Shown in pieces: positions 1-25,775 of a stretch of 25,775 nt of DNA (the first letter of the stretch is position 1; each line of letters begins with the position of its first letter). Under the pieces are notes generated by a model, which was given only the letters and a program-made list of their open reading frames with translations, made no database searches and was not told the origin of the DNA. The stretch spans positions 1-25,775 of the IMG/VR virus record IMGVR_UViG_3300022752_000346. One strand, 5' to 3'. The stretch is from a virus. The position numbers and the translations under genes were made by a program.

Positions 1-2460
1 TCTAAATTATTTGGTGATTCTTATTTTAGATTTCAAACATTAAACTCAACATTAGATAATAATGGATTTGTTAAAGTAGCTCCATATGTTGATGATAAAT
101 ATAGTGACTATAATAGCGAAGGAAACAAAACTAGTGTATCAGACCCAAAGAATTATATGCTTTCTATTGAAAATTTGGCATGGTATGGTTATGAAGCATA
201 TCTACCACCAATAGAAGCTGGTGTGGGTGATTTAATGACAGGTAGCAAAGGTAGAATAATGTGGTTTCCACCTTATAATATTCAATTTAACGAATCTACG
301 TCTGTTAATTGGGAGTCAACAAATTTTATAGGTAGAGGTGAACCAGTTTATACATATAATAATACAGAAAGAAGCGCTAGTTTATCTTTTAGTATAATTG
401 TTGACCATTCAAGCTATATGAATTCTTTTAGAGGAGCATTAGGTCCAGAAGACAATTATGTTGCTTCATTTGTTGCTGGTTGTGTTGAACCTAATAATAA
501 ATTTGCTGAAAGACTTACAGTTTCTGAAATAAGTTCAATTGTGCAAAAAGAAATACAAGACCCACAACAACAAGTTTTAACTAATGATATACCAGACAAT
601 ATTCAATTTGAAATATATTATCCAAATGATGTCTATTCTTTAAATTATTCTTTAACTGGTGGTTATGAAAATGGTTTAGATAATAATTTTAATAATGGTA
701 ACCAAATAATTGGAACACAAACAATTCCTTCACCAGGTGAAGGATATGGTCTTGTAACTATAGCTGGAGAACTTACTAACGTAGGTACACTATACCCTGA
801 TAATACAAATTTTGGGTTTAATAATAAACCAATAGAAGTTGATAATGTTACTTACAGTGGTTTAACAGACCCAAACTTTGCTATTGCTTTAAGTAATTAT
901 TTGGAAACAAAATGCAAGCATTGCACTATAAATATAAAATCAAGTGCTAGCCCACAAGGAGATGAAGCAAGTAATCAACAATTAGCAACAAAAAGAAATG
1001 AATCAGCTTCTAATTTTTTTAAAGTTTTAGGTATAAATGGGGAAAGAATAAAAACAGAAATAGAAGAAATGGACGAAGATGATAGAAATCAATGTCAAGA
1101 GTCTTTTTCTAGAGATGTTCGTCCATGTAAAATACGTAGAAGGTCTTTTATAACAATAGAATACGATTCAAATTATGCAGCAAATAATGAAGTTAAACCA
1201 GAGCCTGTAGTTAAAAAACAAAACTTTGAAGTCAATACTAAAATAAGTAATAGATTCTATAATGAAGCTATATATTTTGAAAAACTAAAACAAACTGATA
1301 ATTTTGTTTTTGATTCTTTTAGAGAAAAAATTAAGTATTTTCATCCAGCTTTTCATTCCATGACACCTGAAGGGTTAAACTCTAGATTAACATTTTTACA
1401 ACAATGTACTAGACAAGGACCAACAACTGAAAATGTTAACACTAATAATTTGGCTTTTGGCAGACCTCCAATCTGTATTCTTAGACTTGGAGACTTTTTC
1501 CATACAAAAATAGTTATAGACAATCTTAGTATTGATTATGAACCACTAGTTTGGGATTTAAACCCAGAAGGTGTTGGTGTCCAACCAATGATAGCAAACG
1601 TAACACTTTCGTTAAAAATAATTGGCGGTTCATCTCTTTTGGGTCCAATAAACAAATTGCAAAATGCATTATCATTTAATTATTATGCCAACACACATGT
1701 TTATGACCCAAGAGCTGATTATATAGCCAAAACTAGTGATTTAGCTGAAGATGTTGTACCTGTTAAAACAAATGGTGACTATTCATTGATTAGTGGTCAA
1801 ACAAATATAAACAAATATAGAACTAGTACGGTTATTTCTGAAACCCCAGTTGAATCAGAAATTAACCAAACGGCTGCATCATCAGAGGCTGCTAAAGTTG
1901 CTGCCAAATCAGCGCCACTTTCTAATCCAACTACAGGTTCAACTGAGCCAGAAATAACATCTGTTAGATATGTTAAAATAAAACCTATCGATGTAAACGT
2001 TAATAACAATACTAACAAATATGAAATAACAGTATTACTGAATCAAAATAATGTTTTTGACGCAAATGGTGATTTAATGTTGGCTTCGTTTAACAATAGT
2101 AATGATAAAGTTATAGAATATTTTAATAAAGGTATTTCTTTTGTTTTATCACAACCAACACCTCAAAGTGATGTTAGAAATTTAGCTGGCACTGGTACTG
2201 ATTTTTACAATAATAAATTAATTAAATACACAAATGACTTAGGTGAGACTGGTTTAAAAGAATTATTTGTACCTAACGCATTTGGTTGTGACGCTTTTGA
2301 ATTTGAATGTGGATTTAAATATGTGGTTGAAAACTTAAAATTAGATGCTTATACTTATAATAATAATTTTAATTTTGAACTTAGATATAATGGTAAAAGA
2401 ATTCAAATATTTAACATGAACCCAATTTATAACGATACTTTTGTTTATCAAGCACAATAA
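1..2460 (+). CDS. Baseplate/tail-tube-associated virion protein with an inserted OmpA-like domain (5' partial)
   Basis: The frame is open from base 1, so the gene begins upstream; the first ATG at 157 is internal (52 codons precede it) and 819 residues are visible. Visible residues ~120-160 contain a 'GRGEPVYTYNNTERSASLSF' stretch, and ~495-580 contain 'PPICILRLGDFF' followed by 'VTLSLKIIGG'. Both resemble the beta-rich tube-initiator/baseplate proteins next to the hub in contractile phages (T4 gp48/gp54 type); this is a pattern-level match only. Between them, residues ~254-390 look like an OmpA C-terminal peptidoglycan-binding domain: A316-S-P-Q-G-D, then N325, L328 and R332, ending in a basic strand. 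The C-terminal part is Asn-rich and unrecognised. It lies 13 bases before a gp53-like gene and upstream of the hub gene, consistent with assembly at the tail tip. Confidence 0.6.
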   Translation, partial: SKLFGDSYFRFQTLNSTLDNNGFVKVAPYVDDKYSDYNSEGNKTSVSDPKNYMLSIENLAWYGYEAYLPPIEAGVGDLMTGSKGRIMWFPPYNIQFNESTSVNWESTNFIGRGEPVYTYNNTERSASLSFSIIVDHSSYMNSFRGALGPEDNYVASFVAGCVEPNNKFAERLTVSEISSIVQKEIQDPQQQVLTNDIPDNIQFEIYYPNDVYSLNYSLTGGYENGLDNNFNNGNQIIGTQTIPSPGEGYGLVTIAGELTNVGTLYPDNTNFGFNNKPIEVDNVTYSGLTDPNFAIALSNYLETKCKHCTINIKSSASPQGDEASNQQLATKRNESASNFFKVLGINGERIKTEIEEMDEDDRNQCQESFSRDVRPCKIRRRSFITIEYDSNYAANNEVKPEPVVKKQNFEVNTKISNRFYNEAIYFEKLKQTDNFVFDSFREKIKYFHPAFHSMTPEGLNSRLTFLQQCTRQGPTTENVNTNNLAFGRPPICILRLGDFFHTKIVIDNLSIDYEPLVWDLNPEGVGVQPMIANVTLSLKIIGGSSLLGPINKLQNALSFNYYANTHVYDPRADYIAKTSDLAEDVVPVKTNGDYSLISGQTNINKYRTSTVISETPVESEINQTAASSEAAKVAAKSAPLSNPTTGSTEPEITSVRYVKIKPIDVNVNNNTNKYEITVLLNQNNVFDANGDLMLASFNNSNDKVIEYFNKGISFVLSQPTPQSDVRNLAGTGTDFYNNKLIKYTNDLGETGLKELFVPNAFGCDAFEFECGFKYVVENLKLDAYTYNNNFNFELRYNGKRIQIFNMNPIYNDTFVYQAQ

Positions 2461-2473
2461 AATTTAAAATAAT

Positions 2474-2794
2474 ATGGCACAATATTTCGACAGATACGGT
2501 AATTTTAGAGAAAACGGTCAAATGAAACCATTACCTGGAATCTCTATTCCTTCAGCCAATAGTGATAAATTAGCTGTTTATAAAAAAGGTGTTAGTAGAC
2601 TTGACAAAATAAGCAACACATATTATAATAACCCATACAGTGGTTGGTTGATATTGTTAGCTAATCCTCAATTTGGTGGTTTAGAGTTTAACATTCCAGA
2701 CATGTCACCAATAAGAGTGCCTTTTCCTTACGACAATGCTGTTCAAAGATATATAAACGAAGTTAAAACATATACATTGCTTTATGGCCAATAG
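2474..2794 (+). CDS. 53: gp53-like baseplate wedge protein
   Basis: This 106-residue protein has the pattern of the short gp53/LysM-like baseplate wedge family: 'GVSRLDKISNTYYNNPYSGW' (residues ~39-58), then 'ILLANP', then a proline-bearing 'IPDMSPIRVPFP' end. The family is typically read as 'R-x-D-x-(I/V)-x-x-x-Y-Y-x-x-P-x-x-W ... N-P ... I-x-x-G-x-x-(I/L)-R-(I/V)-P'. T4 gp53 (196 residues) is longer, so this is a minimal version. In T4 it links wedges to the hub. The gene starts 13 bases after the upstream stop with an A/T-rich leader and no Shine-Dalgarno sequence, and its end overlaps the hub gene by 11 bases, implying translational coupling. Family assignment is by eye. Confidence 0.65.
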   Translation: MAQYFDRYGNFRENGQMKPLPGISIPSANSDKLAVYKKGVSRLDKISNTYYNNPYSGWLILLANPQFGGLEFNIPDMSPIRVPFPYDNAVQRYINEVKTYTLLYGQ

Positions 2795-5700
2795 ATTACA
2801 AGGAGTAGACCCTAATAGTGTTGATGAACTAGATTCTAGCTCTAATTTTTTTGTACCGTATGAAGATTTGACAATATTTGTTGAATTAAGTACTGAAAAA
2901 AAAGAAAGAACACTTTTGACAACCACATCATCTGGTAGTTTTACTGAAAGTAATAATAGGGTTAAAATAAATTTTATTGAAGGTGAATCTTTTAATGGAC
3001 AACGTTCTTTAACAACAAAATTTACTGAATTAACAACTAGTTTTGATGGAGAAAATTCTAGTGAAAATTTAGGCATTACTTCAATAGACATTGATTTTAA
3101 TTCTTCATTTGCACCAATGATTACAATTCAATTTGTTGATGTGAGGGGTAGTGCAATATTTCAAAATGAAAATAAAACAGCTAATAACAAAAACAAATAT
3201 TCCGTTTTTTTCCAATTACCATACCCTATATATAATTTAAAAATAAAAGGTTATTATGGCCAGCCAGTTGAATATTGTCTCCATATGACAAAATTTACAT
3301 CTAGATTTAATTCACAATCTGGTAATTTTGAAATAACAGCTAGTTTTGTTGGCTATACATATGCTATGTTATCAGATATGCTAATTGGTTACTTAAAATC
3401 AATAGAATATACAAAACTAGGTGCTGATAAGTATGCTGAATTAAAATCTCAAGACCCTAATTTAATGACTTTAGACGAACTATATGATAAGGTTTCAAAA
3501 ATAAATGAAGGTGTTAAAAGAATAGTTCAGAGTAATGACGAATATAAAAAATTAAAACTTATTGATAGTAAATTACTTATAATTAGTGATATAAGAGATA
3601 GAATAAAAAAATTTAGTAATGATGTTGATATTAATCAAAAACCTAGCACATATAATTTTGCTATCACTAAATTACCAAATGATGAATATAATAAATTTCA
3701 AAATCAATACATAACTGATATTACTAAGTTAATTGAAGATTACAATAAAGATATTGATATAAAAATAGATGAAAAATTTAAACAAGTAATAAAATATGAT
3801 GGCTTATCAATAAATATATTAGAAGATTCTACAGATGAATATTTTAGAGCTAGAGAACTTATAACTAGTGATGGTGATAAAAAAACAACTATAAAAAATT
3901 TATTAACATATATAAATAAAAACAATTATGTTTTAGCTTCTGATTTTACTTTCAATTCAATTGATAATACTTTTTTTTATAAAGAATTAGATGATAAAGT
4001 TTCTAAAATTAAAGATTTAATTAAAAGTTTACAAGAAATTTTAGCTACTGAATTAAGAAATAAAGTTAAAGGAGAATTAGATTTTGACCCATCAATAAGA
4101 AACATTGTAAAAATTTTTACAACGGCTGCTGAAGTTTTTATGTATTGCATAGGTAAAGTTTCAGAAGAAGCTTCGAAAGAATCAAATACAACTAGACGAG
4201 ATGAATTAGCAAAAGTTTTTAAAATAAAAGAAACGTCTGACATACCTAATGATGCTACAAATAAAGATTCTCAAGATATTTTAATACAATCATTTTATCC
4301 ATGGCCAGACTATAGAAAAGAAACAGACAATACTTTAGAAGAAACTTATTTAGGTGATTTTGGTGTGTTAGAGGAACCAAGTAATGTTGATGAATTATTA
4401 TTCATAGATGATTTACTAAGAGCATTTATAATACAAGCAAATAACCAATCTAATATAGAAGCTTTAGCAAACGCAAATAAAAGTAATTGGATTCCATCGA
4501 ATCCTTTGGATACTAGAATATTTGGCAATGAATTATCACCATATAAAAGAATAAATCCATTAAAAGAAAATGACCTTTTAACATTGGTTTTAATAAGAGC
4601 GACAACTTTTTTAGGTCTTAATTCTAAAATAACGTCTGGTGAAATAACAAAAATGGCCGAAGCCGAAGCACAGGCCGTAGTTAACGATGTTCAAAATAAA
4701 CAAATTGTGCAAGCAATTTCTAATAATAACTCAGGCTCAACTGAGGTCATTCCTACTGTATCTAATGAAATAAATTTTTTTGACACTAAAATATTTGCAA
4801 ATAGTTCAAATATTGACTACAAATATGACTATATATTATCAGCTGATTCTAAAAAATTTTTACCAATAAATAATAGTTTTTTTAAAGCAGAATGGCCAAG
4901 TAATTATACTGAGTTAAAACAAAAACAAGAAAACGGTACTTTATTTTTAGGTAATCAATATTTTACTCCTTCAAATTTAACTTTAGATGATGATGGGTCG
5001 ATATATGTTAAAATAGTTGAAAATGAAACATATACTATTAATCATACTGATTTTCAGTTACCAATCACAACATCAGAATCACTAATTAATTTAGAATCTT
5101 TAAAAAACGATGCTACTAATATTGATGGAGTTGGTTTTAACGCTTTTGCTGGTCCTTATGGTGTTCAAGAATTCAGTCAATTAAATTGGAATATTGATAA
5201 TTTAGATGGTTTACCATTAAGTTATTTGTTTTATTCAGACTCAATTGATAAAGGTTATGGAATATTTGCAAATGGATTGGGTTATTTTAGAAATAACGAT
5301 AATGCTTTAAAAAATTCTGAGTTTGACGTAAAACAAAATAAATATAAGGTTGCGTCACGAGTTGACAACATATTGGACATGTTTAAGGTTCCTGAAAAAA
5401 TGTTACATGATTCATATGGAAAAAATAGAGAGTTGTTTAATAATATTAGACAATCTAAAAAAAATAATATTTCATACCCATATATACATTTTACTGTAGA
5501 CGCAAACTATGATTTTGTAGATAATCCATATAATACCCCATCCACAAATCAGTATTTAATGAGGAATATCTCAATACCAATTAGTTTATTCGGTAGCAAT
5601 TTTTATTATGGTCAATCAGATGAAAAAGCAAAAGCTTTTCTTTTTTTACATACATTACCGTGGAATGGTTTAACTGAATCATACTTAAAAACAATATTTA

Positions 5701-8312
5701 AAAATGGTTCACAAGATACTGAAATTTTAAATTTATTTAAATATAGGACTGGATTTGTTTCAGCACCAAAATTATGGGCTTGTTTTATAGGTGGATTGCT
5801 TTGGAGATTTGACAGTCAAATAGACCCTATTATTTTTTCATCAACAACAGGTAGTTTAATACCAATGGTTATTTCTTATCCACAAAAAAATGAGTTTATG
5901 ACTCTTTCTAATGAAGATGAAGATTATACGGATAAACCAATGTCTTTTAAAAACCGTTCAAACAATGATACTTATAAAAAAATTGATTCTATACTTTTAA
6001 ACCTACCAAGACAAGTTAAAAATGAATTTATAGAATATTTTTTAAAGTTTTCAGTTGGTGAAGATTGGACTTCTATTAAATCTGCTTTAGAAATAAATGT
6101 TAGTGGAACTTGGTTACAAGTTTTTAGCGCAGCAACAGCTTTAAACGTCAACTTGTCTCAATCTGGTAATGAGTATTATTTAAATACAAACAATTTAAAA
6201 ACTATTTATGGTAAAAATTTTGATAATTATATTATTTTTAACCCTTATTTAAACTACCGACTAAAAGGTAATTATTTTTTAGAAATAAAAGATAATGCAC
6301 CAATTACAAATATTTTAATTAACCTTTTACAAAAGCAAGTTTTTATATCAAATATGTCTTATAGGATATGGGATGAAAACATACCAAATTCTGATATTAT
6401 TATAGATGAAAAGAATTTAGAAGATTATTTTAATGTTTTTTTAAAAAAAGTTGAAGGCTTGTTACCAAAGTCACAAGAAGATGAAGAGAAAACAAAAAGA
6501 AATAGTATATTTGGTACTTCTGATGAAAACTTAATAAAATTCATGTTATATAGAACATGTAAAAACATTAATGATAAATGGATAACACAAACTACAGATG
6601 ATAATGTTTTTTTTCAGTGTGGTGTCAGAAACCAAACAGATTCAGCATTGGCGACAAAAAGAACCAGTAATTCAAGCAATCCATCATCAACACCAAGATT
6701 AATAGATAGTTTTAGATTTGTTGATAGAGCCTTTAAGGATATTGGAGATGATTTTGCATTAAACCCATTTCCAATTTATGATATGATGGGTTCACAGCCA
6801 AATACTAGTCTTTATAATTTACTTACATCTATATTATCATCAAATAATTTTGATTTTATTGCGTTGCCTAATTTTATAGATTATAGAAATAATAATAACT
6901 TAAAAAACGTCTTTAAACCGTACCCAAAATATTCAGTAAATAACATTTCTGGTCCTTCTTTTATTTGTATGTATGTAGGACAAACATCTAAACATTTAGA
7001 TTTTGGTGGTTCAAATTACCCTAATGATGGTTTTGACTTTAGGGATGGTGATACCCCATCTGATTTTAACTCTGAATTAAAAGATAATGAAGACCCAGTG
7101 ACATATTTTAAAGTTAGGTTTGGTCAACAAAATCAAAATATATTTAAAGATATATCATTAGACCAGAGTGAATTTGCTGAAACAGCAGAGTCTTTGCAAA
7201 TAATGGATGATATATCTAAAAAAGGTACTGAAACATATAGAACATTAGCTGGACAAAACATTTATAATGTATATTCCGTTAGAAGTTATAAAGTTGAAAT
7301 TGAAATGATGGGTAATGCAATGATTCAACCAATGATGTATTTTCAATTAGATAATATTCCCATGTTTCATGGTGCTTATCTTATTACTAGGGTAAAACAC
7401 AGTATTAAACCAAATTCTATGTCAACTAATTTTACTGGTACTAGAATAAGAAAACCAGCTACTAAAATATTAGATACTGGTTATTTATTTATGTCATTGC
7501 TTGAAACGTTAAATACAACTAACATTGATACTAATGGTGTGACAATTAATTCAAATAATTATAATTGGCAAACATCTGACGTAGAATGTGGGTCTTTCAA
7601 TGTTGGTTCAATAACTACTGATACTACTTTAACCGATGAAAAAGTACCTAATCTAACAGCCACTAAACCTATTAGAGATTTGGTAGCTAGGGTCGAAAGT
7701 CAACCAGACAATTACAATGCATATAATATTGGGGATTCTGGTGCACAAGGTTCTATGAATTATAAACCTTCAGACCTAACAATTAAACAAATTAAAGAAT
7801 TACAAGCATTACCAAATGGTAACGAAAAAAGAATTTTTGCGGTTGGGAAATATCAATTAATACCAAGTACGTTTAGCGGAATGACAAAAGCTTTAGGGTT
7901 TAATGATAATGAAAAATTTGATTCTGAAAAACAAGAAAAAGCAGGTATTTGGTTAATAAAAGATGGTGCTGGAGGTAGAAAAGGGTTAAAAGCGTATTTT
8001 GCAAACGATAGCAATGGTACAGAATTAGACCTTCAAAAAGCGATAACTGATTTAGCTTTAGAATTTGCTTCAATGCCAACATTTTTTGGACCTAATAAAG
8101 ATTCAGCAAAAATTTACAGCAATCCTGGTGGATACTATCAAAATACTTCATTATATGGTGGAACGGCTGGAAACCCTGCTTCATCTAAATTTTGCGCTTT
8201 AGATGTAGCTAAAGCTTTAATACAAACATGGAAAAACTTAAATCCTGGAAAAACGCCTGAAATAGATTATGAAACCATATTACAAAGAGGTGGTCAACAA
8301 CCAACAGCTTAA
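2784..8312 (+). CDS. Giant baseplate hub protein with C-terminal lysozyme/transglycosylase-like domain (gp27 + gp5-like)
   Basis: This 1842-residue protein appears to combine the tail-spike hub and the cell-wall-cutting enzyme. Residues ~172-207 ('FNSQSGNFEITASFVGYTYA') and ~1497-1560 (an MMGNAMIQPMMYF stretch, then HGAYLITRVKHSI, ending TNFTGTRIR) resemble the split barrel of gp27/gpD-type hub proteins. Residues ~1620-1842 look like a lysozyme/lytic transglycosylase domain: 'VARVES' with a candidate catalytic Glu at 1638, a following NAYN segment, and 'GKYQLIPSTF' near 1690, the usual signature of soluble-transglycosylase-like muramidases. The middle (~210-1490) is Asn/Lys/Ile-rich and unrecognised. 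In T4 these functions are split between gp27 (391 aa) and gp5 (575 aa). The start overlaps the gp53-like gene by 11 bases. Confidence is high for a hub/tail lysin and moderate for exact homology. Confidence 0.7.
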   Translation: MANRLQGVDPNSVDELDSSSNFFVPYEDLTIFVELSTEKKERTLLTTTSSGSFTESNNRVKINFIEGESFNGQRSLTTKFTELTTSFDGENSSENLGITSIDIDFNSSFAPMITIQFVDVRGSAIFQNENKTANNKNKYSVFFQLPYPIYNLKIKGYYGQPVEYCLHMTKFTSRFNSQSGNFEITASFVGYTYAMLSDMLIGYLKSIEYTKLGADKYAELKSQDPNLMTLDELYDKVSKINEGVKRIVQSNDEYKKLKLIDSKLLIISDIRDRIKKFSNDVDINQKPSTYNFAITKLPNDEYNKFQNQYITDITKLIEDYNKDIDIKIDEKFKQVIKYDGLSINILEDSTDEYFRARELITSDGDKKTTIKNLLTYINKNNYVLASDFTFNSIDNTFFYKELDDKVSKIKDLIKSLQEILATELRNKVKGELDFDPSIRNIVKIFTTAAEVFMYCIGKVSEEASKESNTTRRDELAKVFKIKETSDIPNDATNKDSQDILIQSFYPWPDYRKETDNTLEETYLGDFGVLEEPSNVDELLFIDDLLRAFIIQANNQSNIEALANANKSNWIPSNPLDTRIFGNELSPYKRINPLKENDLLTLVLIRATTFLGLNSKITSGEITKMAEAEAQAVVNDVQNKQIVQAISNNNSGSTEVIPTVSNEINFFDTKIFANSSNIDYKYDYILSADSKKFLPINNSFFKAEWPSNYTELKQKQENGTLFLGNQYFTPSNLTLDDDGSIYVKIVENETYTINHTDFQLPITTSESLINLESLKNDATNIDGVGFNAFAGPYGVQEFSQLNWNIDNLDGLPLSYLFYSDSIDKGYGIFANGLGYFRNNDNALKNSEFDVKQNKYKVASRVDNILDMFKVPEKMLHDSYGKNRELFNNIRQSKKNNISYPYIHFTVDANYDFVDNPYNTPSTNQYLMRNISIPISLFGSNFYYGQSDEKAKAFLFLHTLPWNGLTESYLKTIFKNGSQDTEILNLFKYRTGFVSAPKLWACFIGGLLWRFDSQIDPIIFSSTTGSLIPMVISYPQKNEFMTLSNEDEDYTDKPMSFKNRSNNDTYKKIDSILLNLPRQVKNEFIEYFLKFSVGEDWTSIKSALEINVSGTWLQVFSAATALNVNLSQSGNEYYLNTNNLKTIYGKNFDNYIIFNPYLNYRLKGNYFLEIKDNAPITNILINLLQKQVFISNMSYRIWDENIPNSDIIIDEKNLEDYFNVFLKKVEGLLPKSQEDEEKTKRNSIFGTSDENLIKFMLYRTCKNINDKWITQTTDDNVFFQCGVRNQTDSALATKRTSNSSNPSSTPRLIDSFRFVDRAFKDIGDDFALNPFPIYDMMGSQPNTSLYNLLTSILSSNNFDFIALPNFIDYRNNNNLKNVFKPYPKYSVNNISGPSFICMYVGQTSKHLDFGGSNYPNDGFDFRDGDTPSDFNSELKDNEDPVTYFKVRFGQQNQNIFKDISLDQSEFAETAESLQIMDDISKKGTETYRTLAGQNIYNVYSVRSYKVEIEMMGNAMIQPMMYFQLDNIPMFHGAYLITRVKHSIKPNSMSTNFTGTRIRKPATKILDTGYLFMSLLETLNTTNIDTNGVTINSNNYNWQTSDVECGSFNVGSITTDTTLTDEKVPNLTATKPIRDLVARVESQPDNYNAYNIGDSGAQGSMNYKPSDLTIKQIKELQALPNGNEKRIFAVGKYQLIPSTFSGMTKALGFNDNEKFDSEKQEKAGIWLIKDGAGGRKGLKAYFANDSNGTELDLQKAITDLALEFASMPTFFGPNKDSAKIYSNPGGYYQNTSLYGGTAGNPASSKFCALDVAKALIQTWKNLNPGKTPEIDYETILQRGGQQPTA

Positions 8313-10571: not shown

Positions 10572-11480
10572 ATGAGTAATGAAAAAACCAGTTTGCAAGC
10601 TATTCTAGAGCAATACGAAGCAAACAACAAACCAAAGTATGAGAAGAAATCAGAAAAGGTTTATGACCTAAAAAACTACTTTAACACCTACATTAAAGAT
10701 GGTGTAAAGTCAGCAACAAAACAAATCAGGGTTTTACCTAACACAAACGGTGGTACACCATTCGTTGAGATGCACGGTCATAAAATTCAAGTTGATGGTG
10801 AGTGGAAAACATTCCCTTGCTTGAAACATGAAAAAGACGAAGCGTGTCCTTTCTGCGAAGCACGTGAGGCGTTGTTATCTACTGGTAGAGAGTCTGATAA
10901 AGAACTTGCTAAAAAGTACAGCGCAAAAATGATGTACGTTGTTAAAGTGATTGACAGAGAACACCCAGAAGAAGGTGTTAAATTCTGGAGATTTAACCAC
11001 GACTATCGTAAAGAGGGTATCTATGACAAAATCATCGGTGTTCTTAACGCTCTTAAAAAGGATGTTACACACCCAGAAACTGGTCGTGACCTTGTGTTGA
11101 CCATCAATAGAAACCAAAACAATGTACCAGTTGTGTCTGCTGTTGCATCCCTAGACCCTAGTCCGCTTTCAGAAAACGCTGAAGAAGCAAAAGCTTGGTT
11201 GTCAGATGTAAGAACTTGGGAAGATGTTTATTCTGTTAGAAGTTATGAGTATTTGGAAATCATTGTAAAAGGTGGTATCCCAGTATGGAGTTCTGAAGAT
11301 AAGAAATTTGTTGACAAAGCTTCTTTGACTGCTACATCTAGTGAAACTGAGTCTTTGGATTCTGAATTGACATTGGGTGTTGAAAATGTTAAAGCTGGTA
11401 TAGTATCAGCCCCAACTGCTCCAACAGCTACGGTTGAGACAACCAAAGAAGAAGAGGAGTCAGATGACCTTCCATTCTAA
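10572..11480 (+). CDS. 32: Single-stranded DNA-binding protein, T4 gp32 type
   Basis: At 302 residues it is almost exactly the length of T4 gp32 (301). It coats ssDNA during replication, recombination and repair. A basic/aromatic N-terminal region ('KVYDLKNYFNTYIKDG', ~29-44) leads into the OB-fold core. A zinc site is visible: H70, C83, C92 and C95, with the same H-x12-C spacing as T4 H64-C77 and the C-P-F-C pair matching C87/C90. The C-terminal third is acidic, and the last residues are EEESDDLPF. That end resembles the tip of bacterial SSB (DDDIPF/DDLPF), not the gp32 tail, and suggests docking of host or phage replication partners. Two tandem host-type promoters upstream and a terminator downstream suggest strong, early, independent expression. 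It heads the replication block with UvsX next. Confidence 0.92.
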   Translation: MSNEKTSLQAILEQYEANNKPKYEKKSEKVYDLKNYFNTYIKDGVKSATKQIRVLPNTNGGTPFVEMHGHKIQVDGEWKTFPCLKHEKDEACPFCEAREALLSTGRESDKELAKKYSAKMMYVVKVIDREHPEEGVKFWRFNHDYRKEGIYDKIIGVLNALKKDVTHPETGRDLVLTINRNQNNVPVVSAVASLDPSPLSENAEEAKAWLSDVRTWEDVYSVRSYEYLEIIVKGGIPVWSSEDKKFVDKASLTATSSETESLDSELTLGVENVKAGIVSAPTAPTATVETTKEEEESDDLPF

Positions 11481-11561: not shown

Positions 11562-12659
11562 ATGGCGAAAAAACCTACTAAAAAACCTATTGAGAAAAAA
11601 GAATTTAACTTAGAGGATTTTAAGAAGACACAAGGACTTAATTTTACGGTAAAAGAAAAAGAATTAGCATGGATACCACTTTCAGAAGCATTTCATGATG
11701 CGGTTAAAGTTCCAGGAATTCCAGTTGGATATTTTACCAGCTTTAGAGGATATTCAAACACTGGTAAATCAACTGCGATTTATGAAGGTGTTGCTGGATG
11801 TCAAAAATTAGGCATTCTACCAATTATTTATGAAACCGAAGGAAACTGGAATTGGGCTCATGCAAAAAATATTGGTGTTCAATTTGAAGAATATGTTGAT
11901 GAAGAAACTGGAGAATTAAATTACCGTGGTGATTTCATTTTCTTACAAGGTCCAGACCTTTTAAAAATGTACGCTTGTTATGACCATCAACATAGTAAAA
12001 TGGGAACAAAACCATTAAGATATGAACCAGTTGTTGAGGACATATCATTACATATGCACACAATTTTGGATGCGCAACAAGAAGAAATATTACCAAGAGA
12101 TGTTGCTTTCTTCTGGGATTCAGTCGGTTCAATAAACTGTTTCAAAGGTGCTACCTCAAAAACAACCAACAATCAATGGACTGCTGGTGCTTTGGCTACA
12201 TGCTTCAAATCACTAATTAATTATAGAATCCCAGCGTCTAGAAGAGAAGATGCACCTTATACCGCTACATTTGCTGTAGTTCAGCAAATATGGTTAGATA
12301 ACGAAAACAAAGTTATCAAACATAAGGGTGGTGAAGCGTTCTTTTACTCACCAAGACTTATCTTCCATTTTGGTGGTATTCTTACACATAGCACTGAAAA
12401 ATTAAAAGCTACATTGGCTGGTGAAGAGTTTCAGTTTGGTGTTGAAACCAGAATTAGATGCGAAAAGAATCAAGTTAATGGTATCGAACAAAAGGGCAAG
12501 ATTGCATCAACACCGCATGGCTATTGGAACCCAGACAAAATCAATGATTACAAAGAAGAGCACAAAGAGTTTATAAAGGCTCATTTAAACACAGAGTATG
12601 ATGATTTTGTGATTGAGAAAGAAGAAATCGGATTAAGCAAAGAAGATATGATGGCTTAA
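11562..12659 (+). CDS. uvsX: UvsX-type RecA-family recombinase
   Basis: This 365-residue protein (T4 UvsX is 391) is the RecA-fold strand-exchange ATPase that starts recombination-dependent replication and repair on gp32-coated ssDNA. Walker A is G63-Y-S-N-T-G-K-S-T71 and Walker B is V-A-F-F-W-D186. An acidic residue pair after 'PIIYETEGNWNW' (~88-98) fits the catalytic Glu strand. The following 'SVGS' and 'TTNNQWTAGA' segments fit the DNA-contacting loops. The N-terminus is Lys-rich. It sits after gp32 and before the 5' nuclease. The stop at 12657-12659 is in the same frame as the next gene, which begins 30 bases later at a GTG, so stop readthrough would give a fusion; I see no signal for that. 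Confidence 0.9.
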   Translation: MAKKPTKKPIEKKEFNLEDFKKTQGLNFTVKEKELAWIPLSEAFHDAVKVPGIPVGYFTSFRGYSNTGKSTAIYEGVAGCQKLGILPIIYETEGNWNWAHAKNIGVQFEEYVDEETGELNYRGDFIFLQGPDLLKMYACYDHQHSKMGTKPLRYEPVVEDISLHMHTILDAQQEEILPRDVAFFWDSVGSINCFKGATSKTTNNQWTAGALATCFKSLINYRIPASRREDAPYTATFAVVQQIWLDNENKVIKHKGGEAFFYSPRLIFHFGGILTHSTEKLKATLAGEEFQFGVETRIRCEKNQVNGIEQKGKIASTPHGYWNPDKINDYKEEHKEFIKAHLNTEYDDFVIEKEEIGLSKEDMMA

Positions 12660-12689: not shown

Positions 12690-13739
12690 GTGAATAAAAG
12701 ACCACCACGTAATGGTGAAAAAATAATAAAGAAACAAAATACGCTTTTGGTAGACGGAAATGCCCTATTTAAAGTAGGGTATTTCGGTGCCAAAGGAGAA
12801 TACAACAGCAGTGGAGAACACATTGGTGGTTTATATTCGTTTCTAACTATTTTACGAAAAATTTTAACGGATGACCTTTACCATAAGGTTTATGTTTTCT
12901 GGGATGGAAACTACAGCGGAAAGCTAAGATACGAAATATACGAACCATACAAAAGTGGCCGTGGTAAAGATTATATAAACGGCACCCAACCAATAGAACT
13001 ATCTGAACTAAAACAGAGAAAGATGGTTTGGGACTATCTAAACGAAATGTATGTTAGACAATTAAAACACGAAGTTATTGAAAGTGATGACTTTATAGCA
13101 TACTATTGTTTAAATAAAAAGGAGAACGAAAAAATTACAATTGTATCGACAGATAGAGACTTTTTGCAGTTGATATCTGAAGACGTAAGAATTTATTTTA
13201 TAGATTTGAAAGAATATGTTGATTTATTCAATTATTCTTCGTACTTTTGCCACCACAAAGATAATTCTGTTCTTATAAAAACCATGATTGGAGATACTAG
13301 TGATAGTATAAAAGGAATCAAAGGTTTAGGTGAGACAAAATTACTTTCTTTATTTCCAGATTTAAAACAACGTAAACTAAGTGTAGATGACGTAATTCAA
13401 GAAGCAAAAAGGTTACAAAATGATAGAGTAACCAACAAACAGAAACCTCTTACAATCCTAGATAATATCATAAACAAGGTTACAGACGGTGTTCAAAAAG
13501 ACAAGATTTATGAGATTAATGATAGATTGGTAAACTTGTCAAAACCAATGTTAACTGAAAACGGTGTAAGAGAATTAGAACATTTAATAGATGGTACCCT
13601 TGACTCATCGGGTAGAGACCTCAAAAATGTTTTTATCATGATGAAAAGAGATGGGTTAGACAAATCATTGGGTGAGACTAGGTACGCTACCTTTTTAGAA
13701 CCTTTTAAAAAACTAATAGACAGAGAAAACAATTTTTAA
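12690..13739 (+). CDS. rnh: 5'-3' exonuclease / RNase H of the FEN family (T4 Rnh-like)
   Basis: The 349-residue protein has the acidic metal-binding set of the FEN/PIN superfamily: D22 in LLVDGNALF, D72 in VFWDGN, E131/D133/D134 in ESDDFIA, D155/D157 in STDRDF, and D202/D205 in GDTSDSIKGIKGLG, which also begins the helix-hairpin-helix DNA-binding motif. In T4, RNase H removes lagging-strand RNA primers; gp32 and UvsX upstream and gp41 downstream fit that role. T4 RNase H is 305 residues, so this one has a longer C-terminus. GTG at 12690 is the only sensible start: the frame is open back to the uvsX stop but has no ATG before the conserved core. The ATG at 12682 is in another frame and terminates after three codons. 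Confidence 0.88.
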   Translation: MNKRPPRNGEKIIKKQNTLLVDGNALFKVGYFGAKGEYNSSGEHIGGLYSFLTILRKILTDDLYHKVYVFWDGNYSGKLRYEIYEPYKSGRGKDYINGTQPIELSELKQRKMVWDYLNEMYVRQLKHEVIESDDFIAYYCLNKKENEKITIVSTDRDFLQLISEDVRIYFIDLKEYVDLFNYSSYFCHHKDNSVLIKTMIGDTSDSIKGIKGLGETKLLSLFPDLKQRKLSVDDVIQEAKRLQNDRVTNKQKPLTILDNIINKVTDGVQKDKIYEINDRLVNLSKPMLTENGVRELEHLIDGTLDSSGRDLKNVFIMMKRDGLDKSLGETRYATFLEPFKKLIDRENNF

Positions 13740-14306: not shown

Positions 14307-15716
14307 ATGGCAAAAATAGATAGAGACAATTTGGGTTATTTGGGTTTAGACTATGAGTTTAGACTTATGGCTCAATTACTTACAGACAATAGATTTGCCA
14401 ATTCAATTGTTGATATAGTAGATGCTAATTACTTTAGTGACCCATATCTTAGAGTAATAGCAGCTGCAATAAAAGAAGCCAAAGAAAAAGATGATATTGT
14501 TCCTGACTTAGGAAGTATTAAAATTAGACTGTTAGCCGATGTGACAGAGGATTTACAAAGAAAGTATATCCTAACACAGCTTAGCAAGGTTCAAGAAGCT
14601 AGTTCTTATGACGCTCTTAAAATACAAGACATCGCTATGAAGTTTTGTAAGCAACAAGAGTTGAAGAAATCTATCAAACAGATTCAAAAAATTATTGATG
14701 TTGGTGACATTGAAAACTATGAAAAATGCGAAACAATACTTAGAAAAGCATTGGAGCATGGTGACAACAAAGATGATGGTATGGATATTTTTGATAATAT
14801 CAAAGATGTTTTGATTGATGACTTCAGAAAACCAATAAGAACTGGTATAAAAGGCTTGGATGAAGTAATGGACGGTGGCTTATCTAAAGGTGAATTGGCT
14901 GTAATATTGGCACCATTTGGTGTCGGTAAAACAACCATGATGACCAAAATTGCTAACACAGCAATGAACGATGGTAACAGAGTTTTACAAATATTCTTTG
15001 AAGACAATCCAAAAGTAATTCAAAGAAAACACATTTCTTGTTGGACTGGTGTTGACTTAAATAGCTTATCTTTACACAAAGATGAAATCATGTCTTTATG
15101 TGAACAAAAGCAAAAAGAGTCAAAAGGCGGTAAAGGTATCTTAAAACTTAAAAAGTTTTCTAGTGATGGGACAACCATACCGATTATAAGACAGTACATT
15201 AGGAAAAAAATTGCAGAAGGTTTTAGACCAGACATCGTTCTATTGGATTATATAGACTGCGTTCAGCCATCAAGAAAGTATGATGATGCGAATGTTGGGG
15301 AAGGCAGTGTTATGAGACAATTTGAAGCTATGTTAGCTGAATTAGATATTGCTGGCTGGACAGCGGTGCAAGGAAACAGAAGTTCAATAAAGGCAAACGT
15401 AGTAGAAGCAGACCAAATGGGTGGTTCAATCAAAAAAGGTCAGATAGGACACTTTATTGTGTCAATCGCAAAAACACTTGACCAAAAAGAAAATGGAACT
15501 GCAACAATGGCCATACTTAAATCACGTTTTGGAAAGGATGGTATTATCTTTGAAGACATTACCTTTGACAATGCTAGGATTCAGATAGATATGGGTCAAA
15601 GCAAAGGAGCAAGAACCCAAACTGAATACAGAAAAGATGTCGAGATTAACGACCAAGCAAGGGTTAATGAAGTTTTAGCCAGCACAAAAAGAAAAGCGGT
15701 TATAAACGAAGCATAA
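14307..15716 (+). CDS. 41: Replicative DNA helicase, DnaB/gp41 type
   Basis: At 469 residues it is close to T4 gp41 (475). The hexameric 5'-3' helicase unwinds DNA ahead of the polymerase and works with primase. The N-terminal ~150 residues are helical and fit the DnaB N-terminal domain. The RecA-like motor begins 'GIKGLDEVMDGGLSKGELAV' near residue 180. Walker A is A202-P-F-G-V-G-K-T-T210, a catalytic Glu candidate is E232 in FFEDN, and Walker B is V-L-L-D314-Y-I-D. A 'GNRSS' segment and a following basic region fit motifs H3/H4. The ATG follows a strong hairpin and a candidate promoter motif. Ribonucleotide reductase genes follow, giving a replication plus precursor-supply set. No primase gene is in the window. 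Confidence 0.9.
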   Translation: MAKIDRDNLGYLGLDYEFRLMAQLLTDNRFANSIVDIVDANYFSDPYLRVIAAAIKEAKEKDDIVPDLGSIKIRLLADVTEDLQRKYILTQLSKVQEASSYDALKIQDIAMKFCKQQELKKSIKQIQKIIDVGDIENYEKCETILRKALEHGDNKDDGMDIFDNIKDVLIDDFRKPIRTGIKGLDEVMDGGLSKGELAVILAPFGVGKTTMMTKIANTAMNDGNRVLQIFFEDNPKVIQRKHISCWTGVDLNSLSLHKDEIMSLCEQKQKESKGGKGILKLKKFSSDGTTIPIIRQYIRKKIAEGFRPDIVLLDYIDCVQPSRKYDDANVGEGSVMRQFEAMLAELDIAGWTAVQGNRSSIKANVVEADQMGGSIKKGQIGHFIVSIAKTLDQKENGTATMAILKSRFGKDGIIFEDITFDNARIQIDMGQSKGARTQTEYRKDVEINDQARVNEVLASTKRKAVINEA

Positions 15717-15739: not shown

Positions 15740-16693
15740 ATGTATCTAAAAGATAAAACACTTAAAAAAAGGTATTCCATTTTCCCAATCATTCACAATG
15801 ATTTGTGGCAAATGTATAAGAAAGCAGAATCACAAACTTGGGTTGCTGAAGAAACAGATTTGAGCAAGGACAAATTTGATGAGCTAAAAGATAATGAAAA
15901 AACCTATCTAAAAAATATTTTGGCTTTCTTTGCCATATCAGATGGGTTGGTTATTGATAATTTGGCCACAAACTTTCTTAACGAAGTTGAAATATTGGAA
16001 GCTCAATATTTTTATGGACATCAAACGTTTATTGAACAAGTTCATGCAAATGGATATTCTCTATTGATTGAGACTTTTATAAAAAATCTTCATGAGAGAG
16101 AAGAGCTGTTTAATTCAATGGAAAGCAATCAAGCTGTTGCTAAAAAAGCTTCATGGGCTGAAAACTGGATAAACCATCCATCATTTGCTCATAGATTGGT
16201 AGCGTTTGCTTGTGTTGAAGGGATTGCATTCTCTAGTGTATTTTCTGGAGTTTTCTGGTTTAGAAGCAGAAACAAAATGCCAGGTTTGGCCGCAATGAAC
16301 GAATTGATTTTAAGAGATGAAACATTCCATTATGAATTCGCAATCAACTTGTATAACAATTATTTAAAAGAGGATTACAAATTATCAACAGATGAGTTAA
16401 GAAAAGTTATATTGGGTTGTTATGAAGTTGAAAAAGCTTTCGTTGAAGAAAGCATGCCAGATGGTTTACAAGGAATCACAAAACAAGACATGGTAAAATA
16501 TGTTCAGTATGTTACTGATATTGTACTAAACGATTTTGGTTGTCAAAGAGAATTTATGGTTAGCAATCCATTAGAATATATGTCTAGAATTGGATTGTCT
16601 TCTAAAAATAACTTCTTTGAAAAGAGAGAAGGTGAATATACCAGAGTAGATATTCCAACAACTATTGATGGTATTTTTGACGAAGAATTTTAA
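15740..16693 (+). CDS. nrdB: Class I ribonucleotide reductase beta subunit (NrdB/R2)
   Basis: The 317-residue protein carries the full radical-generating site: D68 (ISDGLV), E99 and H102 (FIEQVH), radical Tyr106, E160 (ACVEGI), E194 and H197 (RDETFH). Spacing matches R2 proteins of the tyrosyl-radical di-iron class. The 'EETDLSKD' and 'LAFFAISDG' motifs and the short length resemble the eukaryote/Bacteroidota-type R2 rather than the longer T4/E. coli type (T4 NrdB is 388). The C-terminus 'GIFDEEF' fits the flexible tail that docks on NrdA. It begins 24 bases after the helicase gene and precedes nrdA by five bases, the reverse of the T4 nrdA-nrdB order. Together they make dNDPs for phage DNA synthesis. 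Confidence 0.94.
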   Translation: MYLKDKTLKKRYSIFPIIHNDLWQMYKKAESQTWVAEETDLSKDKFDELKDNEKTYLKNILAFFAISDGLVIDNLATNFLNEVEILEAQYFYGHQTFIEQVHANGYSLLIETFIKNLHEREELFNSMESNQAVAKKASWAENWINHPSFAHRLVAFACVEGIAFSSVFSGVFWFRSRNKMPGLAAMNELILRDETFHYEFAINLYNNYLKEDYKLSTDELRKVILGCYEVEKAFVEESMPDGLQGITKQDMVKYVQYVTDIVLNDFGCQREFMVSNPLEYMSRIGLSSKNNFFEKREGEYTRVDIPTTIDGIFDEEF

Positions 16694-16698: not shown

Positions 16699-18858
16699 AT
16701 GGGAATGAGAATACTTAAACGAGACAAAACGACACAGGCATTTATGCCAAATAAAATCCTAACTAGGATTAAAACACAATCGACTGGACTAAAGGTTGAT
16801 GCCGATTCTTTATTTTTAGAGGTGATGCCACTTATAAGTGATAATATCACAACAACAGAAATAGATGAAATAATTGCTTTTAAAGCTGCTGATAAAATCA
16901 TTCAGCACCCAGACTACTCCTTATTAGGTGGTAGAATACTACTAAGCAGACAATCAAAATTGATAGGCAAAGAATTGCAACCAGTTGATTTGACTTATGA
17001 CTTTTTTGCTGCAACAACATTTCTTTCGAAGTATTCAAAAAGAGATAACAACAAAGCTCCAATTGAATTACCTTCATGTATGTATGAGCGTGTTGCTTAT
17101 CATTTACACGATGATGATGATGAATCTAGAAAGGAACTTCTAAAAGAATTAAAGACCAAAAGAGCCAACTTTGCAACACCGACATATACAAACGCTGGTG
17201 TGGATAAAAGAAATGGCATGATTAGTTGTAATCTAACACATTTGGAAGAAGATTCTTTTGAAGGTATCGAAGCTACTTTAACAAAGATAGCGTCTGCATC
17301 AAAAGAGGGTTCTGGTATTGGACTACTTATAGACCCACTCAGAAGTAAAGATAGCTTGGTTCATTCATTCCAAGGCAACGCTGGTGGTGTTGTAAGACTT
17401 GCAGATATGGTTCAATCAAAAATGCGTTTCTACAAACAAGGTTCACGTTCTGGAAGTTGCGCTCTTTATTTATCAGTTTGGCATAGAGACATTTTTGATT
17501 TCTTAGACCTTACGTTACCAATTGGTGATGAACAATTAAGAACACGTGATTTATTTACGGCTGTTGTTATAAACGATTTGTTTATGAAAAAGCTTGAAAG
17601 AAACGAAAATTGGTATTTGTTCTGTCCAAATGATATAAAGAAAGCTGGGTTAACACCACTACATCTTCTTTGGGGTGAAGAATTTGAAACGGAATATCAA
17701 AAAGCGGTTGATTTGGGGATTGGTAAACAAGTTAATCCGAAAGAAATATTTGATGCTATAGTAAAAGCTCAAGTTGAAAGCGGTAGACCATATGTTATGT
17801 TTAAAGACAATGCTAACAAAAGAAACATGCAGTCTAATATTGGACCTATTTGTCAATCAAATTTATGTATTGAAGTGTTTCAAGCATCAAAACCAAAATA
17901 CACACCTCAATGTACTTTGGCATCTGTAAACTTAGCTGAACACAATGGACTTAAATCAATTGACAAAACAACAAGAGTTTTGGTTAGAGGATTAAATAAA
18001 GTTATTGACAAAAATAAATGGAGCGATGATTGGAGCCAAGCAGCTGGTTTGGACCAAAGAGCTTTAGCAATCGGTGTTGCTGGTTTAGCTGATTTCTTTG
18101 CAAAAAAGAAAATTTCGTTTGAAAGTGAAGAAGCTAAAAAATGGAACAATGATATTTTTGAAACAATGTATAAAGCTGCTGTCGAAGAGTCGATGATAAT
18201 AGCTGAAGAAAAAGGACAAAACTACCCAGCTTGGGAGGGAAGCTTATATTCTGTTGGGGAAACTTATATTGAAGGTTGGTCACCAAAACCAACTGGAGAA
18301 CCAATACCTATGTACAACAGCCTTCTTCTTGGTCTTATGCCAACGGCTTCATCAGCAATTCTTTTGGGTTCATTTGAATCATTTGAACCAGTTACGGCTA
18401 ATTTGTTTACTAGACGTGTCGGTCAAGGTGAATTTTTGATTGTTAACAAATATCTTGTAAACGAATTGATTGAACATGAGTTATGGGATTCAGAAATGAT
18501 TGACAAAGTTATAAAAAATAAAGGTAGTATTCAAAACATTGTTGAGATTCCAGAAGATATTCGTTTCAGATACAAAGATGTTTGGGAGATACCACAAAGA
18601 GTTTTACTAGACTTGGCTATCATTAGAAACAAATATGTTGACCAGTCACAGTCACTGAATGTATACCATGCTGACGCAAAATATGGCAAAATAGCTAGTG
18701 CTTTGATGTACGCTTGGAAAGGTGGGTTAAAGACAGGTGTTTACTACACTAGAACTAAATCAAAGCTAGAAACAAACACAAAATTAGCCACACAACTAGT
18801 AGCTGTTGTAAAGAAACCAAAAGACAGTCAATTTGAATGTTTTGGTTGTTCAGCTTAA
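16699..18858 (+). CDS. nrdA: Class I ribonucleotide reductase alpha subunit (NrdA/R1)
   Basis: The 719-residue protein (T4 NrdA is 754) holds the catalytic and allosteric sites. The N-terminal ~90 residues look like an ATP-cone ('MRILKRDKTTQAFMPNKI'). Active-site residues are C177 (MISCNL), N388/C390/E392 (SNLCIE) and C405 (PQCTLASVNL). Radical-transfer tyrosines are Y682/Y683, and the C-terminal redox pair is C714/C717 in 'FECFGCSA'. The 'KEGSGIGL' and 'SGSCALYL' stretches are typical of the class. No intein or intron interrupts it. The second Met (16705) is an alternative start. It is tightly coupled to nrdB and followed by a terminator that ends the replication block. Confidence 0.95.
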   Translation: MGMRILKRDKTTQAFMPNKILTRIKTQSTGLKVDADSLFLEVMPLISDNITTTEIDEIIAFKAADKIIQHPDYSLLGGRILLSRQSKLIGKELQPVDLTYDFFAATTFLSKYSKRDNNKAPIELPSCMYERVAYHLHDDDDESRKELLKELKTKRANFATPTYTNAGVDKRNGMISCNLTHLEEDSFEGIEATLTKIASASKEGSGIGLLIDPLRSKDSLVHSFQGNAGGVVRLADMVQSKMRFYKQGSRSGSCALYLSVWHRDIFDFLDLTLPIGDEQLRTRDLFTAVVINDLFMKKLERNENWYLFCPNDIKKAGLTPLHLLWGEEFETEYQKAVDLGIGKQVNPKEIFDAIVKAQVESGRPYVMFKDNANKRNMQSNIGPICQSNLCIEVFQASKPKYTPQCTLASVNLAEHNGLKSIDKTTRVLVRGLNKVIDKNKWSDDWSQAAGLDQRALAIGVAGLADFFAKKKISFESEEAKKWNNDIFETMYKAAVEESMIIAEEKGQNYPAWEGSLYSVGETYIEGWSPKPTGEPIPMYNSLLLGLMPTASSAILLGSFESFEPVTANLFTRRVGQGEFLIVNKYLVNELIEHELWDSEMIDKVIKNKGSIQNIVEIPEDIRFRYKDVWEIPQRVLLDLAIIRNKYVDQSQSLNVYHADAKYGKIASALMYAWKGGLKTGVYYTRTKSKLETNTKLATQLVAVVKKPKDSQFECFGCSA

Positions 18859-18963: not shown

Positions 18964-19350
18964 ATGGCTGAATTAAAATACATCAATATAAATTATCCAT
19001 TTAAGAACAGCTCAAAGGGTTTTTTTTTGGATTTGACCAGTGATGAAAATGCAGCAATCAAAGCTGACCTATTGCATTTAATATTAACTAGAAAAGGTCA
19101 AAGACTTTATAATCCAGAGTTTGGAACTGATTTGCTTAGATATATTTTTGAACCAGAAGATGGATTGACATTATCTAAAATAAAAGAAGAAATAGACACA
19201 GCGGTAAACAAATATTTACCAAAACTTAAAGTAAATAATATAAGTGTTGAACCATCAGAATTAAATGACCACGCAGCTGTGGTTAGGTTTGACTATACCA
19301 TAACAGATGACGTTTTTACAACAACTGATTTTGTAATAATTAATATATAA
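18964..19350 (+). CDS. 25: gp25-like baseplate wedge protein
   Basis: The 128-residue protein (T4 gp25 is 132) has the family signature 'LLHLILTRKGQRLYNPEFGT' (residues ~35-54), then 'LLRYIFEP', then a helix and strands ending in 'VIINI'. gp25 is the most conserved wedge protein of contractile injection systems; it joins gp6 and gp53 around the hub and helps start sheath polymerisation. A run of nine T at 19020-19028 encodes Phe-Phe-Leu and does not break the frame. It lies one base before the gp6 gene, the same order as T4 genes 25 and 6. Confidence 0.9.
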   Translation: MAELKYININYPFKNSSKGFFLDLTSDENAAIKADLLHLILTRKGQRLYNPEFGTDLLRYIFEPEDGLTLSKIKEEIDTAVNKYLPKLKVNNISVEPSELNDHAAVVRFDYTITDDVFTTTDFVIINI

Positions 19351-19351
19351 T

Positions 19352-21169
19352 ATGGCACAAGGAATAAACTACACTTCTCGTAATTTTGCGGACATAAGAA
19401 CTGACCTAGTAAACATGGTCAGACAATACTATCCAGACATTTTTAATGATTTTAACGATGCATCTGTTGGTATGATGTTATTGGAATTAAACGCTGCTGT
19501 TGGGGACATGCTCTCCTTCAATACAGATAGAATGTTCCAAGAAACACAAATTGATTATGCACAACAAAGACAATCAATTCTTTCTTTAGCTAGAACGTTT
19601 GGTTTGAAGGTTCCAGGAAAACGACCAAGTGTAACAATAGTTGATTTTTCAGTAACAGTACCACCTTTTGGTGATACATTTGATGTCTCATATGCACCAA
19701 TTATTAGAGCTGGAGCGCAAGTAAGCGGAGCTGGTAAAGTATTTGAAACACAGTATGATATTGATTTTTCAAATCCTTTTACAATAGGTGGTATACCAAA
19801 TAGACTTATTATCCCAAATTTTAATTCAAATGGCATTTTAACTACATATACTATTACAAAAAGAGAAATGGTTATAAATGGTTTTACTAAAATTTTTAAA
19901 AGAACTATTTCACCAAATGATGTAAGACCATTTTTTCAAATAATACTACCAGAAAACAATGTATTATCAATTAATTCTATTATAGCTCTTCAAGGTACAA
20001 ATTTTACTCAAGACCCATCACTAGACCAATTTTTAAATATTCAAAATAGATGGTTTGAAATGGATGCACTAGCCGAAAGTGAAATATTCATTGAAGACAC
20101 AGCTGTAGCTAGTGATAATGCTGGTATTAGACCAGGAAAGTGGATTACAGTAACAAAAAAATTCATACGTGAATACACTGATTTAGGGTTTACCAAAATA
20201 ACATTTGGTGGTGGTAGCCAAGATGTTAGTAGTCTTTGCGACTTTGATGTAAACCCAGCTTTGGTTAATCAAATTGGTGATTTTATAAACAATATGGCAT
20301 TGGGTGAAACACCAACAGCAAATACAACTATGTTTATAAAATACAGAGTTGGTGGTGGTGGAGACACAAATTTAGGACCAAATGTGTTAACTAACATAGG
20401 TTTATTAAACATGACTGTAAACGGTCCAAATCAAACTATAAACAATTCTGTTAGGGCATCTCTTGTTGTAAACAATCCATTACCAGCATTGGGTGGTAAA
20501 GACGCTCCTAGCGTTGAGGAAATTAGGAATATGGTTAAGTATAACTTTTCAGCTCAAAATAGAGCTGTAACAATAAAAGATTATCAGAGTAGAATTTCTT
20601 TAATGCCAGGTGAATTTGGAGTTCCTTTTAGATGTGGTGTATTTGAAGAACAAAATAAAATTAAAGTTTATGTAATGAGTTTAGATGCTAATGGAAAGTT
20701 ATCAAACAATTCAACTAGCACACTTAGAAGTAATATAGCAACATATTTAGCAGATTACAGAATGTTAAATGACTATGTTCAGATTTCAAATGGTAAAATA
20801 ATAAATCTTTCTTTTGAAATTGATTTATTTGTTGATAAAAAAGCACCACAATCACAAATCATATCTCAAGTAATTTCTAGTGTTCAGAGCTTTATGGATA
20901 TAAACAAATATCAAATGGGTGATAATATATATTTGTCACCTTTAATTGAAAATATAAATAATGTTGGTGGAGTTTTAAACGTAATTGATTTAAGAATCTT
21001 TAATAAAGTAGGAAATGGATACAGTGTTAATGAGATTTCACAACCTTACATAGATACAGCGACAAGACAAATAGACATAGCAAGTGACTATACATTGTTT
21101 GGCGACCCAATTACTATGTTTGAGATAAAATTTCCAGCACAAGATATTAAAGTAAGAGTTAAATCATAA
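19352..21169 (+). CDS. 6: gp6-like baseplate wedge protein (baseplate J family)
   Basis: The 605-residue protein (T4 gp6 is 660) begins 'NYTSRNFADIRTDLVNMVRQ' and 'DASVGMMLLELNAAVGDML', typical of gp6/baseplate-J proteins. The mid-region 'PSVEEIRNMVKYNFSAQNRA' followed by 'VTIKDYQSRI' (~384-415) is the family hallmark ('tr.DY'). gp6 forms the ring of heterodimers that triggers the baseplate change. The C-terminal ~200 residues hold the beta-strand-rich dimer part, including 'NLSFEIDLFVDK'. The gene starts one base after the gp25 stop (TAATATGG), so the two are co-translated. Confidence 0.9.
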   Translation: MAQGINYTSRNFADIRTDLVNMVRQYYPDIFNDFNDASVGMMLLELNAAVGDMLSFNTDRMFQETQIDYAQQRQSILSLARTFGLKVPGKRPSVTIVDFSVTVPPFGDTFDVSYAPIIRAGAQVSGAGKVFETQYDIDFSNPFTIGGIPNRLIIPNFNSNGILTTYTITKREMVINGFTKIFKRTISPNDVRPFFQIILPENNVLSINSIIALQGTNFTQDPSLDQFLNIQNRWFEMDALAESEIFIEDTAVASDNAGIRPGKWITVTKKFIREYTDLGFTKITFGGGSQDVSSLCDFDVNPALVNQIGDFINNMALGETPTANTTMFIKYRVGGGGDTNLGPNVLTNIGLLNMTVNGPNQTINNSVRASLVVNNPLPALGGKDAPSVEEIRNMVKYNFSAQNRAVTIKDYQSRISLMPGEFGVPFRCGVFEEQNKIKVYVMSLDANGKLSNNSTSTLRSNIATYLADYRMLNDYVQISNGKIINLSFEIDLFVDKKAPQSQIISQVISSVQSFMDINKYQMGDNIYLSPLIENINNVGGVLNVIDLRIFNKVGNGYSVNEISQPYIDTATRQIDIASDYTLFGDPITMFEIKFPAQDIKVRVKS

Positions 21170-21193
21170 GGTTTTCTTATTTTTACAGTTTTG

Positions 21194-21209: not shown

Positions 21210-21229
21210 AAATTTAAAAATTAATTAAA

Positions 21230-21574: not shown

Positions 21575-21579
21575 AATTA

Positions 21580-25710: not shown

Positions 25711-25719
25711 TATATTAAC

Positions 25720-25775
25720 ATGAGTACAGAAAGAAAACAAATTAGATTAGCGGTAGAAAATTCAAAAGAATCTTT
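25720..25775 (+). CDS. Start of a further baseplate-block gene (3' partial)
   Basis: An ATG at 25720, nine bases after the giant-protein stop and in the usual A/T-rich leader (TATATTAACATG), opens a frame to the window end giving 18 full codons beginning MSTERKQIRLAVENSKES. Too little is visible for identification. Position suggests another baseplate or tail-fibre gene. Confidence 0.6.
   Translation, partial: MSTERKQIRLAVENSKES

Follow-up and report, generated by a model that had tools for sequence, protein, structure and literature searches.

Elimination of type II restriction sites, i.e., a drop in frequency to below 0.1, has been recorded in 7.1% of site-phage pairs (Rusinov et al. 2018, PMC6286503). 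The coliphage phiX174 is devoid of GATC, for which avoidance of Dam-directed mismatch repair has been proposed (PMC5014478). Among named phages, Flavobacterium phage immuto (Immutovirus) is the nearest relative of the phage fragment considered here by its UvsX (35%) and is among the nearest by its gp6 (27%). The order of its replication genes is similar to that of the clade to which the fragment belongs; it differs in carrying 7-deazaguanine DNA-modification genes and in retaining GATC (155 versus 195 expected in 50 kb). The fragment and its relatives, by contrast, have lost this word.

A T4-like phage fragment without GATC

The window, i.e., the whole stretch of DNA analysed, is one complete IMG/VR record (IMGVR_UViG_3300022752_000346) of 25,775 bp, from a phage with a G+C content of 31%. 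It encodes several T4-like markers, namely UvsX, a gp32-like SSB, an exonuclease, a DnaB-like helicase, NrdA/NrdB, and gp25- and gp6-like baseplate proteins, and is a piece of a large T4-like phage, probably with a host among the Bacteroidota. Its features are as follows:

1..25775, no strand: stretch free of GATC, with CCGG also at 0 (word counts and shuffles, whole record)
1..2460, plus strand: gene cut short by the left end of the record, its frame open from base 1 and an ATG inside it at 157; without a family match; in-frame reading places GAC-C examples at 142, 559, and 868
2784..8312, plus strand: protein of 1,842 aa with an endolysin-like region at the C-terminus; GAC-C example at 2808
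10572..11480, plus strand: single-strand DNA-binding protein, T4 gp32-like (family match)
11562..12659, plus strand: UvsX-like recombinase; query for relatives
12690..13739, plus strand: 5'-3' exonuclease family protein
14307..15716, plus strand: DnaB-like replicative helicase; query for relatives
15740..16693, plus strand: NrdB, ribonucleotide reductase small subunit
16699..18858, plus strand: NrdA, ribonucleotide reductase large subunit; nearest cellular kin mostly Bacteroidota
18964..19350, plus strand: gp25-like baseplate wedge protein
19352..21169, plus strand: gp6-like baseplate wedge protein; query for relatives

The NrdA proteins of the relatives form two groups, with 76-98% and 37-41% identity to that of the window (16699-18858). 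This split is seen among phages with gp6 identity above 70%, and NrdA seems from these identities to have been swapped for a distant version in some relatives.

A computer count finds no GATC on either strand of the window, as the initial annotation had claimed. Base composition predicts 72.7 sites, close to the roughly 70 that it had put forward; the expectation is 50-73 depending on the null, with 56.3 under a second-order Markov model and 50.2 +/- 7.2 from dinucleotide-preserving shuffles. Under the strictest null, synonymous-codon shuffling inside the window's own genes, 53.1 sites are expected (38-71 over 1,000 shuffles). The dependence of the Asp codon on the following base was likewise correctly perceived: GAC is used in 42/42 Asp codons before C and in 16-34% before other bases, and the four examples given for it (142, 559, 868, and 2808) are all in-frame Asp GAC codons followed by C. 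Further, Ile codons after G are never ATC (0/63) and Ser codons after xGA are never TCN (0/13). The survey of other palindromes had been less complete. GGCC, AGCT, CTAG, TCGA, and CGCG all occur as listed, CGCG just once (6.3 expected); the absence of CCGG (0 versus 7.6 expected) had been overlooked.

The GATC taboo across the clade

Five IMG/VR searches with the UvsX, gp6, and DnaB-like helicase queries yielded 287 loci from public metagenomes, including several from the same or near-identical records. More than one GATC occurs in seven of these (L067, L075, L076, L077, L091, L138, and L219) and a single one in two. With the former seven left aside, the GATC-free set contains 2 GATC in 2.46 Mb of non-redundant positions; these lie at positions 104 and 74 of their loci (L062 and L107) and were set aside because each is at most about 100 bp from a contig end. 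Whole records were counted with GATCWWWW on both strands as a stand-in for GATC: it is absent from either strand in 45 of 50 records (3.95 Mb, partly non-independent), and its reversed control, WWWWCTAG, is common. The absence is complete in the largest genomes, viz., a 368,549-bp record (G042; 0 versus 1,113 expected), a 306,463-bp record (G014; 0 versus 708), and a pair of 171,472 and 168,871 bp (G004 and G018; 0 versus 396 and 413), in each of which CCGG is also at 0. Taking elimination of a type II site as a frequency below 0.1 of the composition-matched expectation, with an expectation above 15, GATC is eliminated from the window (0/56) and all four large genomes. The taboo has been kept while the proteins of the clade diverged by tens of percent, and the literature searched, with incomplete coverage, contains no prior description of it for this clade.

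The large genomes differ in other respects. Dense arrays of tRNA-like genes covering most amino acids are found in G042 (about 60; L163-L181) and G014 (more than 30; L182-L197), and no such arrays in the two 170-kb relatives. An intein-splicing domain match occurs among the shared proteins of G004 (L198-L199), several of whose proteins greatly exceed their counterparts in length.

Among 65 non-redundant contigs, GATC is eliminated from 63, CCGG from 31/34, CGCG from 9/19, and GCGC from 5/33, the denominators for the latter three being the contigs where enough sites are expected. GATC and CCGG are known type II recognition sites; over the same contigs CTAG, GTAC, AGCT, TTAA, and GANTC are near expectation. 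Beyond the shared taboos, individual genomes have their own: CGCCG (1/54 observed/expected), CCAGA (22/253), GCAGC (24/218), and CCTCC (23/153) are depleted in G042, and GCGC (0/51) and CGACG (0/19) are gone from G004. A changing set of host restriction systems would be expected to leave such a combination of persistent and shifting taboos.

Selection on DNA and its cost in protein

The genes of the four large relatives have 0 GATC against 1,946 expected from codon shuffling. Asp before C is encoded by GAC in 1213/1213 cases versus about 20% before other bases, Ile after G by ATC in 0/2439 versus about 20% otherwise, and Ser after xGA by TCN in 0/326 versus 66% otherwise. The absence of GATC is hence selection on DNA, directly visible at synonymous codons. 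A purely mutational or compositional origin is accordingly extremely improbable: at least 50 GATC in the window are expected under each of the three nulls (dinucleotide, Markov, and codon-shuffle), the observed/expected ratios of GANTC, GTAC, and CTAG over the clade are 0.98-1.18, and relatives of similar composition carry GATC.

The taboo also reaches the proteins, as Pro, His, and Gln codons all begin with C and Asp followed by one of these three residues is found at 0.67 of expectation (33% depleted). This is the lowest value of all 20 residues, the next lowest being 0.84. In immuto, the same pairs number 69 versus 74 expected.

Repeated release from the taboo

Trees of gp6, the DnaB-like helicase, and UvsX place the fragments with GATC singly within GATC-free groups (L138; L076 with L091/L219; and L067), which indicates that the taboo has been lost at least three times. 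These fragments have 38-77% of the expected sites. L067, with 13 GATC, has 77% DNA identity over 5 kb to its sister L055, with none, and 13/13 of the sites differ in the latter. Totals for this pair had suggested a reciprocal swap of GATC and CCGG taboos, an idea that was dropped because the region common to both has no CCGG.

Two similar-looking ORFs of 161 and 166 aa lie between the SSB and UvsX genes of L075 (5049-6056) and also in L076 and L077, with no homologs in the GATC-free set. They were considered as the gene explaining the GATC-bearing state of L075-L077 and rejected, as no function could be assigned to them and the fragments are short.

Modification and nuclease genes in the phages

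The claim that the phage has no protective Dam-like methylation is supported by the searches: D12 methyltransferases are absent from 40 phage records, N4/N6 methyltransferases are absent from 24, and no C5 methyltransferase scores over the family cut-off, with two partial sub-cut-off matches inside one 1,586-aa frame. The phage proteins searched include no homologs of the immuto DpdA, QueC, QueD, QueE, FolE, and QueF. By gene content, these phages are without known protective methylation or base modification, which leaves room for novel modification types.

The near clade-wide presence of the GATC and CCGG taboos across many metagenomes, more uniform than host enzymes present in a few percent of genomes would suggest, raises the alternative that the phages themselves encode a GATC-specific nuclease, used for host DNA breakdown or exclusion of rivals, and shed GATC to avoid self-cutting. 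In its fullest form, which we hold to be similarly doubtful, there would be a conserved nuclease for GATC and a second one for CCGG, both of an unrecognised family and unaccompanied by a methyltransferase, that target host or rival DNA, and loss of the nuclease would let GATC be regained. Of the 72 genes common to the four large genomes, many match no known family and might encode such an enzyme. We nevertheless regard a phage nuclease as unlikely: there is no DpnII-family match in the 40 phage records, six-frame searches of the four genomes and 65 contigs gave no Sau3AI-like protein, and the Pfam matches listed for the shared genes (for one set, the first 25 of 42 families) include no restriction-endonuclease family. 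Moreover, several further taboo words differ from genome to genome, so that many separate nucleases would be needed.

Probable hosts and their restriction enzymes

TAnnTTTG is the Bacteroidota-type promoter word. Upstream of ORFs versus in coding controls it scores 84 versus 14 in G042 and 65 versus 15 in G014, with a weak signal in G004 and G018 (11 versus 7 and 11 versus 5, respectively); Shine-Dalgarno sequences are below the control in all four. The nearest cellular NrdA proteins, at 36-39%, come mostly from Cytophagales and other Bacteroidota, along with Bdellovibrionota-like records. Both the promoter-like motifs and NrdA suggest hosts among the Bacteroidota. A gp6 query of the cellular genome set, aimed at phage DNA binned with its host, found no relative.

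Candidate enzymes are present in such hosts at low frequency. Among 395 Bacteroidota genomes, Sau3AI/MutH is found in 6, DpnII over the cut-off in 11 (two of them strong), HpaII over the cut-off in 9, and the Sau3AI-type methyltransferase in 8. A pond Cytophagaceae genome has a complete Sau3AI-type operon coding for the endonuclease and a C5 methyltransferase, and another Bacteroidota genome a complete DpnII-type operon coding for a D12 methyltransferase, DpnII, and a second methyltransferase. The search of Bacteroidota genomes for GATC-specific restriction-modification genes, which the initial annotation had proposed, finds complete operons, with the endonuclease families in just a few percent of species. 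Matches to a GATC methyltransferase and HpaII co-occur in three Bacteroidota genomes (G184, G263, and G432; hypergeometric P ~0.0006), one of the three HpaII matches being split by stops. The systems described in Flavobacterium psychrophilum are directed at CCGG, CGCG, CCNGG, and GCSGC, and this species also has a prevalent GATC methyltransferase, for which no partner enzyme is recognised (PMC11837570); the match between these specificities and the words avoided by the clade supports the restriction reading. The pressure against GATC is not general on Bacteroidota phages, as isolated ones of other groups keep the word (phi14:2, 56/60 observed/expected; FCL-2, 35/59).

This GATC methyltransferase of F. 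psychrophilum, together with the 3/8 Bacteroidota genomes in which the related Sau3AI-type methyltransferase comes without a Sau3AI/MutH match, could also be taken to mean that GATC is read by a defence outside the known restriction families, e.g., one that acts as a so far unrecognised partner to the GATC cytosine methyltransferase, which is widespread. We consider this quite improbable: ordinary type II systems suffice for the pattern, and there is no direct evidence of another effector.

Host restriction as the preferred explanation

We therefore propose, with a probability of roughly 0.8, that host type II restriction, by Sau3AI/DpnII- and HpaII-like enzymes, has purged GATC and CCGG sites from the genome of the large T4-like phage, probably infecting Bacteroidota, to which the window belongs. 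A phage copy gaining a GATC by mutation would be cut in enzyme-carrying cells and leave fewer offspring, and mutants with an altered site, the change being mostly synonymous, would survive. Once the last site is gone, the genome would be invisible to the enzyme and need no methylation, base modification, or inhibitor. Three points of this are inferred: a restriction enzyme of the host does the cutting, the host belongs to the Bacteroidota, and the restriction is still active. The initial annotation had named restriction of the Sau3AI/MboI/DpnII type, and in view of the clade-wide spread and the synonymous-site selection this is the best-supported reading, its link to a host enzyme being the inferred part.

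The rarity of known GATC endonucleases in Bacteroidota weighs against host restriction, as it fits uneasily with a near-universal taboo. A rough estimate bears on this. GATC has about 45,700 one-step neighbours per Mb, and if mutations are assumed to occur at 1e-8 per base per replication, new sites would arise at about 1.5e-4 per Mb per replication. Holding GATC at or below about 1-3 per Mb at equilibrium then needs an average selection of just ~1e-4 per site, so that a defence which phages encounter in just a small share of infections can hold the genome free of sites. The long exposure to a GATC-cutting host that had been suggested is likely, with the amendment that by this estimate rare encounters would suffice.

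Comparison with known systems

The clade resembles the phages of the survey cited at the outset (PMC6286503) in that dsDNA phages without known protective modification have lost a palindromic type II site. It differs in that the loss is virtually absolute in genomes of up to 368 kb and spans a diverse clade, and in that two near-universal words are joined by variable extras and Asp-Pro/His/Gln pairs are depleted. Both phiX174 and the clade are without GATC, the former being a small ssDNA coliphage and the latter large dsDNA phages of probable Bacteroidota hosts. The 42-kb Microcystis phage Mel-JY01 (L161) likewise has GATC at 0/83, but it is distant (gp6 27%), has a cyanobacterial host, and has a different and very broad set of missing words: it is also without CTAG (0/36), GAATTC (0/27), and GATATC (0/15), has TTATAA at 1/34, and misses several more.

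The contrast with immuto parallels that published for coliphages that have or lack a DNA hydroxymethylase (PMC6286503). The base-modifying immuto and the site-purged clade suggest that related phages have two alternative routes, viz., to purge the site or to modify the DNA. As a natural record of restriction pressure, the clade is unusually clean and large; the independent releases mark lineages freed from this pressure, and the missing words could provide a readout of host range and defence history for uncultured phages. The phenomenon is of a known kind; what is unusual is its absoluteness over hundreds of kb, its clade-wide persistence, the double taboo on GATC and CCGG, and the cost in amino-acid pairs.
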